From a virus, in the IMG/VR virus record IMGVR_UViG_3300006734_000047, positions 1-22,309 of that record: a stretch of 22,309 nucleotides of DNA; one strand, given 5' to 3'. Position numbers and translations under genes: made by a program. Positions 4,704 to 10,429 of this stretch are shown in pieces. Below the pieces are notes generated by a model. The model ran no database searches, was not told where the DNA came from, and saw only the letters and a program-made list of their open reading frames with translations. Numbering within the stretch: position 1 is the first letter of the stretch; the number at the start of each line of letters is the position of its first letter.

Positions 4704-5408
4704 ATGCCTTTACCCAAGCCAACGAGACCAGAATATTCCTGCACAATTCCATCATCTGGTAAGAGAATCAAGTACCAACCCTTCTCTGTGAAGGAGGAGA
4801 AGATTCTTATTCTGGCTTCTGAGTCTCAGGACATGGATGAGATTACAAATGCCATCACCAATGTTCTAAACAATTGTGTTACAACTGCTGGGTTTGATGT
4901 TAAGGATCTGGCATTGTTTGACATTGAGTTTCTCTTTCTGAAAACCAGAGCTAAGTCAGTTGGAGAGAAACTCGCAGTTAAAGTTACTGATCCTAATGAT
5001 CCAACTTACACAGTGGATCATGAGATTGACATTGATAAGATTGAAATTCAAAAGACCAAAGGACACACTGACCTGATTGATTTGGGTGGTGGCACCAGTG
5101 TCAAGATGGGTTACCCAGACATCAACTTCTTTGCAGAAGGTGTCAATGTGAACACCATTGGAGAAAGACTTGACTTGGCGGCCAAGTGTGTCAAACAAAT
5201 TATTGTGGGTGATGAAGTATATAATAAAGAGGACACCACTGAGGCAGAAACAGAAGATTGGTTAGAAGGATTGACTGCTGAACAATTCACCAAGATTATG
5301 AACTTCTTCCTAACAATGCCGAAACTGAAGCACAGTTTTACACTGAAGAACAAGAACACAGGTGAGGACTTTACCATCACTTTGGAGGGCCTGGCAGATT
5401 TTTTTTGA
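4704..5408 (+). CDS. gp26: gp26 baseplate hub subunit / assembly chaperone
   Basis: The 234-residue product matches the T4 base-plate protein family (gp26, 208 residues in T4): opening LPKPTRPEYSCTIPSSGKR, PFSVKEEKILILASES, NVLNNCV and LALFDIEFLFLKTRAKSVGE, then a C-terminal ILTVPK-like region (EQFTKIMNFFLTMPKLKHSF). In T4, gp26 is needed for assembly of the central hub with gp51, gp28, gp27, gp29 and gp5. The gene ends in a run of eight T directly followed by TGA. A -1 slip there would extend the protein into the next reading frame. No Shine-Dalgarno is obvious before the ATG. Confidence 0.88.
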   Translation: MPLPKPTRPEYSCTIPSSGKRIKYQPFSVKEEKILILASESQDMDEITNAITNVLNNCVTTAGFDVKDLALFDIEFLFLKTRAKSVGEKLAVKVTDPNDPTYTVDHEIDIDKIEIQKTKGHTDLIDLGGGTSVKMGYPDINFFAEGVNVNTIGERLDLAAKCVKQIIVGDEVYNKEDTTEAETEDWLEGLTAEQFTKIMNFFLTMPKLKHSFTLKNKNTGEDFTITLEGLADFF

Positions 5409-5458
5409 TGGCGATGATGCACAATAATTTGATCCAACATTATGAACGCATCTTCGCC
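5399..5458 (+). promoter_or_regulatory. Candidate programmed -1 ribosomal frameshift signal
   Basis: Eight T (5399-5406) give the slippery heptamer T TTT TTT in the gp26 frame. The gp26 TGA (5406-5408) follows at once. A stem-loop begins at 5410: GGCGATGATGC (5410-5420) pairs with GCATCTTCGCC (5448-5458) with a single T-T mismatch, and ATAAT (5424-5428) pairs with ATTAT (5439-5443) inside the loop. The spacer from heptamer to stem is 4 bases. A -1 slip continues as F-F-L-M-A-M-M-H into the 5408-5599 frame without any stop. Confidence 0.55.
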
Positions 5459-5599
5459 TTTAAACAATACCATGGATGGAGTGTCACAGAGATTGAAGAA
5501 CTCATTCCATGGGAACTTGATGTTATGACATCTCTCTTATCTAATTACCTGGAACAACTTGAACTGTCACGCAAGCAAGCTGCTCAAGAGATGAGATAA
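5408..5599 (+). CDS. Small gp51-position protein or frameshift extension of gp26
   Basis: A 63-residue helical product (from ATG 5408; TTG at 5405 and ATGs at 5414 and 5417 are alternatives) contains HYERIFAFKQYHGWSVTEIEEL. Such short proteins with an aromatic F-x-x-KQYHGWS-like core recall the second component of tail-assembly chaperone pairs. T4 places gp51, another hub assembly factor, right after gp26. The ATG overlaps the gp26 stop as TGATG. No close Shine-Dalgarno exists; GGAGG at 5384-5389 is about 20 bases away. Expression is therefore by coupling or by the -1 frameshift. Homology to T4 gp51 (249 residues) is not visible. Confidence 0.7.
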   Translation: MAMMHNNLIQHYERIFAFKQYHGWSVTEIEELIPWELDVMTSLLSNYLEQLELSRKQAAQEMR

Positions 5600-5615: not shown

Positions 5616-7931
5616 ATGTCGATCCTCAGTCAGATATACGGTGAAGCTAAGGGAATTGAAACTTCTCTTGGTAAAATGAGTAAGTCTCTCTCCAAGATGG
5701 AGGAGGAGGATCGACGCAGTAATCGCCAGGAAGATAAGTATCGTCAATTTATAATCACACAGAGAAAGAGAGAATCACAAGATCGTAAGCGATATCATAA
5801 AGAATACACTGAAACAATTGAGAATACAGTTGGCAAGAAAGCTGGCGCTAACATCGTCAAAGGTGGATTGCTAACTGCGCTGGCAGTTGGTCTTGGTGCT
5901 GCAGTTGCCAAGTCACTCTTTGATAAGAATGTCTTAGGAAACTTTTTAGGTGGAGATGGAGAATCAGATTCGTCAGGTTCATCATCAGGTGGTGGAACCT
6001 CAGGTACAGAAGAGACAGGCGGTACTGGTACAGAATCATCAACAACTTCATCATCAAGCGGCCAATCATCAGGTCCTGTAACAGCAGACACTGCAGGCAA
6101 AATTCAAACTGGAATTGATGTTGGCAGAGTATCATCACCCTTTCTGAAGAGACTTATTCCTGGTGTTGGAATGGCTTTTGGAGCAGCAGAAGCTGCAAGC
6201 TCAGCTGCCGCCGGTGATCACTTTGGTGCAGGACTGGCTGGTCTTTCAATGGTTCCAGGTCCAATTGGATGGACTGGATTGGCTGGTAAGGCACTCTGGG
6301 ACTGGAGTAAGTCAGACGAACAAAGACAGAAAGAACAAGAGAAATTAGCTGAAGCACTGAACAAAGTAATGGCGAAACAGTCTGGTGGGTTCACTGGAAT
6401 GGTTCCTAACCTTGGCCAACCTGCAACAGGAGACCACTTCCTTACATCAGTGGCACCAGGTTCTTACATCATGAATCGCAATCTTGTGTCTGCCATTGGA
6501 CATCAATCTGGTGGCATTCCTGTTGCATTGGAGAGGGGCGAGATTGCGTTGCCACCTGGATCTTTTGATCAAAGCATGATGGACTTCCTTAATTATGATG
6601 CGTTCCCTCGTTTCCAAACTGGTGGCATTGTTGAACACCTGCACGGAGACCCAAGTCGATCTGGTTATGACGCCAGTCATGGATCAGAAGCCAATGCTCA
6701 TGACCACTACGCTTTCTCATCTCGTGACTTGATGATTAAAGTCAAAGACCAACTAATTGCAAAGGGATATAACATCACAGAATTCAGTGGTGAAGGCGGT
6801 CATGCTCCAGGTGGATGGCATTACAGAGATGGAGGGACCGCATTTGATGTTCCTTGGTCTCAGTTTGGTAGTGGTCCCATCACTGAATCTGATTATAAAA
6901 AATCAAGAGCTTTACAGTCTCATGTTCATGAGATTTTGAGTAACATGGGTCACAGTCCTAGTGTTACAGTTCAAGCCAGTGTTCCTGCAGACACAGGTGG
7001 AGGAGCAAGTAACTCAGGAAGAGGATCATCTACCAGTTCAGGTGACTCATTGTTTGGTGGTTTTGGTGAACTAGGATCTATGTTAAGTGGATTATTAGGT
7101 GAAATGAATTCTGTCTTTAGTAGCATTGGTGGATTGTTTGATGCAGGCGGTGGCAGTGGACTAGGTGGAATGTTTGGTGGTATGGGATCTAGTGGAAGTG
7201 GTGAAATTTCATCCCTAGGTTCTGGAAAAGGAACACTTAAGGGGTTGGGAGAACAAGACTGGAAGGACTTGGCATATATCGTAAGTGCAGAAGCAGCCAG
7301 AGGAACAGATGATGAGTATGGTGTAGCTGCGGCAATCCTGAATAGAGTTGCACATCCAGATTATCCCAACACCATCAAAGGAGTTGGTGTTCAACCTGGA
7401 CAATTTGAGGCGGTCTTTAAAGGATTGGCCTATGAAGATCCACAACTGGCTAAGAAACTTCAACAGAATCAGGACAAGATTGCAGCAGCGCTTGAAAAGT
7501 TACAAGGCAGAACAGACTTCAAAGGCACAACACAATATGGAAACATGGGTTCCAGTGACATCAGATTCTCAGAGAATGGAAACTTCTATCATTACGCATC
7601 ACAAGTTGGTCGCAATGATCCAGTGCCTCAGAATCCATCACAACAATGGAAGCAATGGGTTGCAGCACAAAGAGGTGGGAGTATCACCAAACATATGCAG
7701 TCAGGTGGCAATGTGATTGCAGACAATCTAAAACACCTTAATGAAACATTTAAGATGTACGAACTTGACACATCCAATCCCATCATCATCATGCAGGATG
7801 ACACTGGACCTGAGATTAGTATGTCAGGTGGAGCAACCAACAACACACCTCAGTATCTGCCAACCAGATCTGATTGTTGGGCGTCTGCTATGCTGGAATA
7901 CAGAGAAAGAAGTTTTAATGTTGTAAGCTAA
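5616..7931 (+). CDS. Modular tail protein with M15-like peptidase and SleB-type hydrolase domains
   Basis: This 771-residue virion-type protein is built of modules. Residues 1-75 form a charged coiled coil, 82-100 a hydrophobic segment (GGLLTALAVGLGAAVAKSLF), and 113-155 a Ser/Gly/Thr linker. Residues 250-340 carry Q-S/T-GG repeats with GSYIMNRNLVSAIG, as seen in tape-measure-like proteins. Residues about 340-445 resemble an M15-type peptidase (H396, H402, GTAFD ending at D411, H436 or H438). After a Gly-rich linker, residues 540-665 match the cell wall hydrolase_2 (SleB) family: DLAYIVSAEAARG, YGVAAAILNRVAHPDYPNTI and QPGQFEAV. The C-terminus ends in NPIIIMQDD, then SAMLEYRERSF. The next gene has the same plan. 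It begins with AAGGA two bases before ATG. Predicted role: opening the peptidoglycan during infection. Domain calls are by pattern only. Confidence 0.8.
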   Translation: MSILSQIYGEAKGIETSLGKMSKSLSKMEEEDRRSNRQEDKYRQFIITQRKRESQDRKRYHKEYTETIENTVGKKAGANIVKGGLLTALAVGLGAAVAKSLFDKNVLGNFLGGDGESDSSGSSSGGGTSGTEETGGTGTESSTTSSSSGQSSGPVTADTAGKIQTGIDVGRVSSPFLKRLIPGVGMAFGAAEAASSAAAGDHFGAGLAGLSMVPGPIGWTGLAGKALWDWSKSDEQRQKEQEKLAEALNKVMAKQSGGFTGMVPNLGQPATGDHFLTSVAPGSYIMNRNLVSAIGHQSGGIPVALERGEIALPPGSFDQSMMDFLNYDAFPRFQTGGIVEHLHGDPSRSGYDASHGSEANAHDHYAFSSRDLMIKVKDQLIAKGYNITEFSGEGGHAPGGWHYRDGGTAFDVPWSQFGSGPITESDYKKSRALQSHVHEILSNMGHSPSVTVQASVPADTGGGASNSGRGSSTSSGDSLFGGFGELGSMLSGLLGEMNSVFSSIGGLFDAGGGSGLGGMFGGMGSSGSGEISSLGSGKGTLKGLGEQDWKDLAYIVSAEAARGTDDEYGVAAAILNRVAHPDYPNTIKGVGVQPGQFEAVFKGLAYEDPQLAKKLQQNQDKIAAALEKLQGRTDFKGTTQYGNMGSSDIRFSENGNFYHYASQVGRNDPVPQNPSQQWKQWVAAQRGGSITKHMQSGGNVIADNLKHLNETFKMYELDTSNPIIIMQDDTGPEISMSGGATNNTPQYLPTRSDCWASAMLEYRERSFNVVS

Positions 7932-10429
7932 TGAAACTATCAGCAGTCTTAGGACTTGAAACTAGCAAGTCAGTCAAAGCTCTTAATGATATTACCAATG
8001 GCATTCAGTCTTTGTTTAATATCAGGAATCAAGATCAAGCAAGAGAAGCAAAGTACTTCCAACAAGGTGCTGCACTCACCAAGCAGGAGATGCAGGATGC
8101 CAAAAAGTTTGAACAACAACAGTTCAGAAATGCACGTGATTATGAAAGATCAATTGAACAAGGTAAAGGCAGTGGCAGAGCAGCTGAACTTGCAATGTTG
8201 TTGGGAGGTGGTGTCTTAGCTGCAAATCTCTTAGGTAAAGCAACAAGTCTCAAGACTTATGGCGGAAGTCTCTTCAGTGAAAACTCTGACTTCACTAAAG
8301 AGTTTACTCAATCATTTGAGAAAGAAACTAAAAAGAGAAGCACCTCATCCTCTAGTTCTACTCCATCCTCTAGTTCTAGTCAGCCAACAAAAAAACCTCA
8401 GGGACAGGTCGCAACTCAAGGCAAAGGCAAATCGTTTGAACACTACAAGTATCTTACAGGTACGTTAGGACTCTCAGACCATCATGCCCGTGGATTAGTT
8501 GCCAATGCCATTCGCGAGAGTTCATTGAATGCAAAGGCTCGCTCAGGTGATGATGGTGGACCTGGCGGTCTGTTTCAGTGGAAAGGATCTCGACAAACTG
8601 AAACTGTCAGAAAACTTGTTGAGTCTGGTGACTGGAGAGGTCAGTACAAATATGCTCTCACAGAAGATGTTGGACCACAATATCAACCTCAACGTTTCAA
8701 TTCTGCACAGGCCGCAGCTGATTGGTGGATGCGCAAGTGGGAGCGTCCAGCCAGACCTGAACATGACAGCAAAAAACACAGAAAGATTCTAAGCGAACTT
8801 GGTTTCCAGAAAGGTGGTGAGGTTCGCCAAAATGATGACAATTCTAATCCCCAAGCACCAGGTGGAAACAGAACTCGAATCAGTGGTGGATCACCCAGTA
8901 AAGATGGATTTGATGCAGGCAATGGAAGTAAGTCAAGAAGAATCTTTCTACACTGGACAGCAGGAAGTTATGATCAAACATTTGGTAACTATCACACAGT
9001 CTTTCTTGGAAGTGGTCAACCAGTAAGACAAACAAAATACGATCAGGACAAGAACCAACACACAGCTGGCGCCAACACAAACTCAATTGGATTGAGTCTA
9101 GCTGCTATGAAAGGTGGATCTGAATCAGCTGCCAGAAGAGGCAACATGGGTTCACATCCACCCACTGATGCGCAGATTAAATCTATGGCTTTGGAGATCG
9201 CAAGAATCGCCAAAGCATGGGGATGGAATGCGAGTGACATTGACAAGAATGTAATGACACATGGTGAGTGGGAAAGATATGCAACCAGTAGTGGACTTCT
9301 ACCTGGTGGACCACAAAGATGGGATCTGGACATTCTAAAGGCAGGTGATCAGTTTGGTTCTGGTGGACCTAAGCTTAGGTCTATGGCAAAATCAATGTTG
9401 CAACAACTAGCACAAGGTCAACAACCAGCCTCTGTTGGCGCACCAACAGAATACTCAGAAGCAGACAATAAATCTGAATCCAATCAAGGTAATCCAGTTC
9501 AAGAAGACAACAAAGATCAAAAACAAATAAGACAAATCATCTCAACTCCAAACATTGTATCTGAACTCACATCAATGGGTCCATTGGGTGAGATGATCCT
9601 TGGAATGGTTAAGGCAACAACTGCAGCTGCAGGATTTGACATTTTTGGACTGGGCAATCTTGAACCCACTGTGCAAAATGTTGTGACAGGAATCACTCCT
9701 TCTCAATCATCAGCACAAGCAGCTGCAGCTGACGCACCCGCCAGTGAACAGGAACAAAAAAAGACTGCAGCAGCAGTCACAGAAGCCACGACCGTCATCA
9801 AGAACATTGTAAAAACTAATCACCCTGATACTGGTTCTGGTTATACAGTCAAGGGATTGATGGACTACAAACAAAGACCTGCTGTATTTTCACAGGCAGC
9901 TGCGTATCACTTTTCCAAAATGATGCAAGACGCAAATGGCGCAATAAAGGGTAGTGACATCTCCAGCAGTCAAAGAAGTAAATCTAAGAACGCATCATTA
10001 CCAGGAGCACATCATAACTCATCTCATCTTTATGGCGAAGCTCTTGATGTAATTGGTTCAACTATGGACTGGATGAAAGCGAATGGATCCAAGTATCATT
10101 GGAGTTATGGTTATAGCCATGGTTCAAATAGCGCTCACTTTAATTACAAAGGACCAGAACAACTTAGTTTAAATGACATCCAACAGAAGCAATCTGGTGG
10201 AGTCGTCTCAATGCAAACTGGTGGCAGTATTGCATCACAATTCAACTCAACTCACTCATCACCAACAAATAAATACCAAAGACCAGTTGTGATTATACAA
10301 AAACCTAAATCTATGTCTACACCTTCTATGTCTATAGTTGATGAGGCTGGATCAGATTCATCAGGAAAAATGAGTGCCAGTGTTGTTTCAACATCAATGT
10401 ACAAGTTCGCTAGAGGATCTCGTACCTGA
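7931..10429 (+). CDS. Modular tail protein with lysozyme-like, amidase and M15-like domains
   Basis: The 832-residue product parallels its neighbour. Residues 1-80 are a coiled coil, about 88-105 a hydrophobic segment (LLGGGVLAANLLG) and 137-152 a Ser-rich linker. Residues about 168-290 resemble phage tail lysozyme (NAIRESSLN, GGLFQW). Residues 330-470 look like an N-acetylmuramoyl-L-alanine amidase_2 domain with likely zinc ligands H341 (in LHWTAG), H444 (in THGEWER) and D465 (in QRWD). Residues about 640-745 carry an M15-type motif S-x-H-x-x-G-x-A-x-D (H699 to D706) and a later H736 (AHFNY). Q-S/T/K-GG motifs at 293, 754 and 762 mark module borders. It starts as TAATG with the previous gene and overlaps gp27 as TGATG. 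It is likely a virion hub or tail protein with several wall-cutting activities. Catalysis is not proven. Confidence 0.8.
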   Translation: MKLSAVLGLETSKSVKALNDITNGIQSLFNIRNQDQAREAKYFQQGAALTKQEMQDAKKFEQQQFRNARDYERSIEQGKGSGRAAELAMLLGGGVLAANLLGKATSLKTYGGSLFSENSDFTKEFTQSFEKETKKRSTSSSSSTPSSSSSQPTKKPQGQVATQGKGKSFEHYKYLTGTLGLSDHHARGLVANAIRESSLNAKARSGDDGGPGGLFQWKGSRQTETVRKLVESGDWRGQYKYALTEDVGPQYQPQRFNSAQAAADWWMRKWERPARPEHDSKKHRKILSELGFQKGGEVRQNDDNSNPQAPGGNRTRISGGSPSKDGFDAGNGSKSRRIFLHWTAGSYDQTFGNYHTVFLGSGQPVRQTKYDQDKNQHTAGANTNSIGLSLAAMKGGSESAARRGNMGSHPPTDAQIKSMALEIARIAKAWGWNASDIDKNVMTHGEWERYATSSGLLPGGPQRWDLDILKAGDQFGSGGPKLRSMAKSMLQQLAQGQQPASVGAPTEYSEADNKSESNQGNPVQEDNKDQKQIRQIISTPNIVSELTSMGPLGEMILGMVKATTAAAGFDIFGLGNLEPTVQNVVTGITPSQSSAQAAAADAPASEQEQKKTAAAVTEATTVIKNIVKTNHPDTGSGYTVKGLMDYKQRPAVFSQAAAYHFSKMMQDANGAIKGSDISSSQRSKSKNASLPGAHHNSSHLYGEALDVIGSTMDWMKANGSKYHWSYGYSHGSNSAHFNYKGPEQLSLNDIQQKQSGGVVSMQTGGSIASQFNSTHSSPTNKYQRPVVIIQKPKSMSTPSMSIVDEAGSDSSGKMSASVVSTSMYKFARGSRT

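Follow-up and report, generated by a model that had tools for sequence, protein, structure and literature searches.

A conserved junction predicted to fuse gp26 to a gp51-like extension by -1 frameshifting in a T4-like cyanophage

The 3´ end of the gp26 gene in a 22,309-nucleotide stretch of viral DNA (IMG/VR record IMGVR_UViG_3300006734_000047; hereafter the window) very probably directs a programmed -1 ribosomal frameshift, which would yield a 298-amino acid gp26-gp51 fusion in addition to gp26 itself. This reading, first put forward in an earlier note made from the sequence, is supported by a conserved run of T residues, by the -1 register of the two reading frames, and by structure in the downstream RNA. 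Frameshifting of this kind has already been reported for many tailed phages, T4-like phages among them, and we regard the window as a further well-supported case. What is new here is a minor variant, wherein the slippery sequence carries a seventh T and is followed immediately by TGA. The features of the junction are as follows.

4704-5408, + strand: gp26 gene, 234 amino acids; predicted short tail-assembly chaperone (TAC-N); matches PF12322 (E=1.8e-60) and phrog_150 (E=6.4e-66); AlphaFold2 pLDDT 88.9
5384-5389, + strand: Shine-Dalgarno (SD)-like GGAGGG, ending 9 nt before the heptamer and probably enhancing the frameshift
5399-5405, + strand: slippery heptamer, T_TTT_TTT when read in frame with gp26; T_TTT_TTY is found here in 103 of 105 distinct junctions
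5405-5599, + strand: -1 frame, a 64-codon gp51-like C-terminal extension (TAC-C) plus stop; matches phrog_634 (E=3.9e-18) and T4 gp51 residues 200-244; alignment A4
5406-5408, + strand: gp26 stop codon TGA, abutting the 3´ end of the heptamer
5408-5410, + strand: ATG overlapping the gp26 stop; putative reinitiation site for free gp51, not conserved
5410-5458, + strand: predicted downstream stimulatory hairpin, with arms at 5410-5420 and 5448-5458 and an inner helix within 5424-5443

The gp26 gene ends with GAT TTT TTT TGA in its own frame, and the T8 run at 5399-5406, which leads directly into TGA and creates the T-TTT-TTT heptamer as originally described, has no second copy on either strand of the window. 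As the earlier note stated, no stop interrupts the -1 frame at the junction; this frame is open starting 40 nt ahead of the gp26 stop and continues to its own stop codon at 5597-5599. Following a slip, the first codon read would be TTG (5405-5407), and 64 codons would be translated before the stop is reached, giving a predicted product of 298 rather than 234 residues whose additional segment begins LMAMMHNN. The length of 63 residues that the earlier note assigned to the small frame holds for initiation at its ATG, but the shift itself adds 64. Another contig (IMGVR_UViG_3300025057_000113; L099/L136) carries 2905 bases identical to the window, T8 included, and its sample may be the same or a related one. 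Over both strands of the window, TTTTTTY is rarer than expected, with 6 matches compared to 16.5 from shuffled sequences.

We gathered gp26 homologues from IMG/VR and from annotated phages and removed duplicates, leaving 105 distinct junctions. An in-register T_TTT_TTY is present at 103 of these gp26 ends (99 TTTTTTC and 4 TTTTTTT), and the stop codon in the relatives lies directly after the heptamer or one codon later. Such a pattern could conceivably reflect a chance T run closing one of two ordinary adjacent genes, with Phe-Phe maintained for protein reasons only. Phe-Phe at the gp26 C-terminus is indeed kept by all members of alignment A1, and T-rich codons are common. However, synonymous choices at the heptamer are fixed beyond codon usage, and this is true in unrelated lineages. 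At the 103 heptamer junctions, Phe-Phe is preceded by any of four residues (S 52, D 36, N 8, A 7), each time encoded by a codon with T in third position, and TTT is the invariant codon for the first Phe. The computed chance of this synonymous pattern is ~10^-39, a figure that takes the sequences as independent and therefore overstates the evidence, whose strength it bounds from above. Furthermore, the -1 register is constant: rather than lying far apart, the gp26 and gp51 frames overlap, with the gp51 frame open, at every junction checked and in eight distant T4-like phages. Among the offsets tested, only the region 5-60 nt downstream is unusually structured. The idea of a chance T run is, in our judgment, almost certainly wrong.

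The earlier note had suggested comparing this junction across related cyanophages, and among the 105 junctions the T run proves to be interrupted only in two distant phages, Vibrio D509 (ACTTTTCAAG TAA; gp26 end at 2223) and Klebsiella phi1_146041 (GAGATTTTCATT TAA; gp26 end at 2241), both of which lack the T6 heptamer. A gp51-like frame is nevertheless still present at -1 in both, and these two phages likely use another slippery site. The gp26 end of Pseudomonas phage pf16 (at 2214) reads GAT TTT TTT CAC TAG, indicating that the T_TTT_TTT heptamer is present in a non-cyanobacterial T4-like phage as well.

Relative to its near relatives, the window heptamer carries a C-to-T difference at the seventh position that is synonymous in both frames, and the stop immediately after the heptamer is common to its clade. 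Two mutually similar contigs from outside this clade, L113 and L131, carry TTTTTTTTGATGGC at the gp26 end with a TGA stop. The window, L113 and L131 share T8-TGATGG, and all three stops are TGA, although three cases are too few to interpret. We consider it unlikely, if conceivable, that T_TTT_TTT with an immediate TGA in these three represents a retuned site with an altered ratio of short to long chaperone relative to the TTTTTTC relatives. At such a site, slippage could also occur with TGA in the ribosomal A site, or polymerase slippage at T8 could be added.

The RNA downstream of the heptamer provides a second line of evidence. The stem-loop that was originally noted four bases past the heptamer is evident in the window, where 5410-5420 pairs with 5448-5458 over 11 bases, broken by a single T-T mismatch, and encloses an inner helix. 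Folding of positions 5395-5465, as the earlier note proposed, gives -19.9 kcal/mol (z -4.38), and 0 of 200 shuffled sequences fold as well. We assessed the conservation of structure by folding each sequence against shuffles and by counting named pairs. Over the 103 heptamer junctions, the region 5-60 nt after the heptamer has a mean z of -2.25 (82% of junctions below -1), whereas mean values at eight control offsets, both upstream and downstream, range from -0.46 to +0.38.

Individual stems are less constant than the presence of structure. Many marine relatives have a hairpin of up to 11 base pairs starting 5 nt past the heptamer, and in this marine group (82 junctions) 69.0% of cells pair, compared with 27-47% for slid pairings and no more than 65.5% after the 3´ arms are permuted among sequences; all pairs of this hairpin are intact in 18 of the 82. 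Within the window's clade, 8 of 18 near relatives retain all of the inner 10 pairs of the stem, others adopt alternative hairpins, and there is little covariation (80.8% paired versus a permuted mean of 78.9%). RNAalifold returned no consensus structure for the ungapped junction sets because the stems differ between clades, and an Rfam search of the window gave no match.

A third element lies upstream. SD-like sequences located approximately 10 nt before a slippery site are enhancers of frameshifting in bacteria. In the window, GGAGGG ends 9 nt before the heptamer and 18 nt before the ATG at 5408. In 83 of 103 junctions, GAGG is found approximately 10 nt ahead of the heptamer, and the Glu of the E-G motif encoded here is specified by GAG in 82 of 93 cases, compared to 736 of 2269 (32%) Glu codons elsewhere in gp26. 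Judging from its sequence and placement, the window GGAGGG probably acts as a frameshift enhancer. Ribosome binding site-like motifs near slippery sites are also discussed in PMC10885494.

An alternative reading of the same junction is that ribosomes terminate at TGA and restart at the ATG at 5408, giving a free 63-amino acid gp51 and no fusion. The TGATG overlap that this process would exploit, which the earlier note did not mention, is present in the window, and gp51 is annotated as a separate gene in several records. Moreover, the codon at this position in 18 near relatives is most commonly ATG (13), with GTG in 2. In the other three relatives, however, the position is GTA (2) or ACG (1). 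For 21 of the 105 junctions, the gp51 frame contains none of the codons ATG, GTG and TTG between its upstream stop and 7 codons past the heptamer, and a ribosome binding site-like match precedes any candidate gp51 start in only 6 of 105. The window itself has no Shine-Dalgarno sequence at normal spacing before the ATG at 5408, as the earlier note had recognized in stating that the small frame lacks a close ribosome binding site. Reinitiation would also leave unexplained the heptamer, the downstream structure, and the natural fusion of a gp26-like domain to a gp51-like tail in T4 gp51. As the sole explanation it is very unlikely, but reinitiation could occur in addition to frameshifting. Within the window's clade, conservation is greater for the Met codons at 5414 and 5417 (18 of 18 and 16 of 18, respectively), and in this clade alone a gp51 start may lie downstream at these positions. 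In S-CAM1, S-WAM2 and ACG-2014e (L002, L007 and L008; approximately positions 1505-1680), the conserved gp51 frame is unannotated, and the next annotated gene begins beyond it.

The slip might instead be made by RNA polymerase. A run of eight T residues is long enough for bacterial polymerases to slip, and a single extra U added at the window T8 would yield mRNAs encoding the same fusion directly. However, 99 of the 103 relatives have T6C, which is probably too short for such slippage, in an otherwise identical arrangement, and a shift by the ribosome is what the SD-like element and the conserved hairpin downstream would suit. We find it extremely unlikely that transcriptional slippage accounts for the fusion by itself, although it could add to a ribosomal shift in the window phage.

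Protein comparisons reveal how the two frames relate to known families. The window gp26 matches the PF12322 profile over its full length (2-218 of 219) and also matches phrog_150, while the -1 frame corresponds to the C-terminal half of phrog_634, which is annotated as ‘baseplate hub assembly catalyst’. The gp51 domain is not represented in Pfam. T4 gp26 matches PF12322, as does T4 gp51 (249 amino acids) at residues 1-201; the latter also matches phrog_634 (E 1.2e-23), and comparison by hhalign of alignment A4, representing the -1 frame family, with the T4 gp51 tail gives a match at residues 200-244 (E=5.7e-5). T4 gp51 is therefore a gp26-like domain joined to a gp51-like tail, which argues that gp26 is the short chaperone (TAC-N), that the 298-amino acid product would be the long one (TAC-NC), and that T4 has as one gene what phages of the window type would make by frameshifting. 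This natural fusion likewise supports the earlier proposal that the phage keeps a two-product chaperone system.

AlphaFold2 models gp26 with confidence, and the BFVD matches of the model include many T4-type gp26 proteins. Comparison of this model with PDB structures gave no significant match, and a PDB sequence search with the gp26 profile returned chance-level matches only. Fifth in the structural comparison is the HK97 tail assembly chaperone 2ob9 (E 1.1, probability 0.51, rmsd 3.8 over 65 columns), a weak match with a compact superposition, which is only suggestive of a fold like that of the HK97 chaperone. The two genes that follow gp51 (771 and 832 amino acids; 5616-10429) have matches of the cell wall hydrolase or endolysin type, with only a weak match to tape-measure proteins (phrog_1107, E=0.0072), too little to identify either gene firmly as the tape measure. 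A tape-measure gene might be expected where these endolysin-type genes reside.

From these elements we infer the shift, how often it would occur, and the roles of the products as follows. The majority of ribosomes would terminate at TGA and release the 234-amino acid gp26. A minority would stall at the downstream hairpin, with help from the SD-like GGAGGG approximately 10 nt upstream of the heptamer and perhaps also from the adjacent stop codon, slip back by one base on T_TTT_TTT, and translate 64 more codons to complete the fusion. If the products behave like lambda gpG/gpGT, the tape-measure protein would be coated by the short form, and tail-tube subunits would be brought in by the C-terminal extension of the long form.

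The lambda gpG/gpGT and P2 gpE/E+E´ systems resemble the window in that a short product is accompanied by a -1 extended product, with frames that overlap near the end of the first gene, but their slippery sequences differ from that of the window. Closer counterparts exist among T4-like phages. The work of Vladimirov, Gautam and Davidson (2022, Virology 566:9-15) is said to assign T4 genes 26 and 51 as TAC-N and TAC-NC, and reportedly describes frameshifting in several T4-like groups. As far as these accounts go, such systems share with the window the same genes (26 and 51 in T4) and a poly-T -1 slippery site; the window has T_TTT_TTT with a stop directly after it, whereas most relatives have T_TTT_TTC. 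T4 shares the protein domains described above but differs in that genes 26 and 51 are separate, lie on opposite strands, and lack a frameshift junction. A passage in PMC12846349 citing Vladimirov et al. 2022 describes poly-T as a known -1 signal in the TAC-N genes of T4-like phages, and one in PMC10885494 citing the same study states that some T4-like phages dispense with frameshifting and encode the short form and the fused long form in a gene each. The conserved tail assembly chaperone motif GTTTTT is described for Vandenendeviridae and Andersonviridae phages such as Adele, which belong to families other than that of the window phage (PMC12846349).

Taken together, the statistics from approximately 100 junctions support production of the long chaperone via -1 frameshifting in cyanophages and in several distant T4-like phages, whereas T4 encodes it as a separate gene. 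The sequence patterns that the earlier note named as counting against the shift do not hold for the family as a whole. Annotation can be mended on this basis, given that gp51 in these phages probably forms the C-terminal portion of a fusion protein. In lambda, tail assembly is controlled by the relative amounts of short and long chaperone, and cyanophages could also be used to test whether this holds for T4-like myoviruses.
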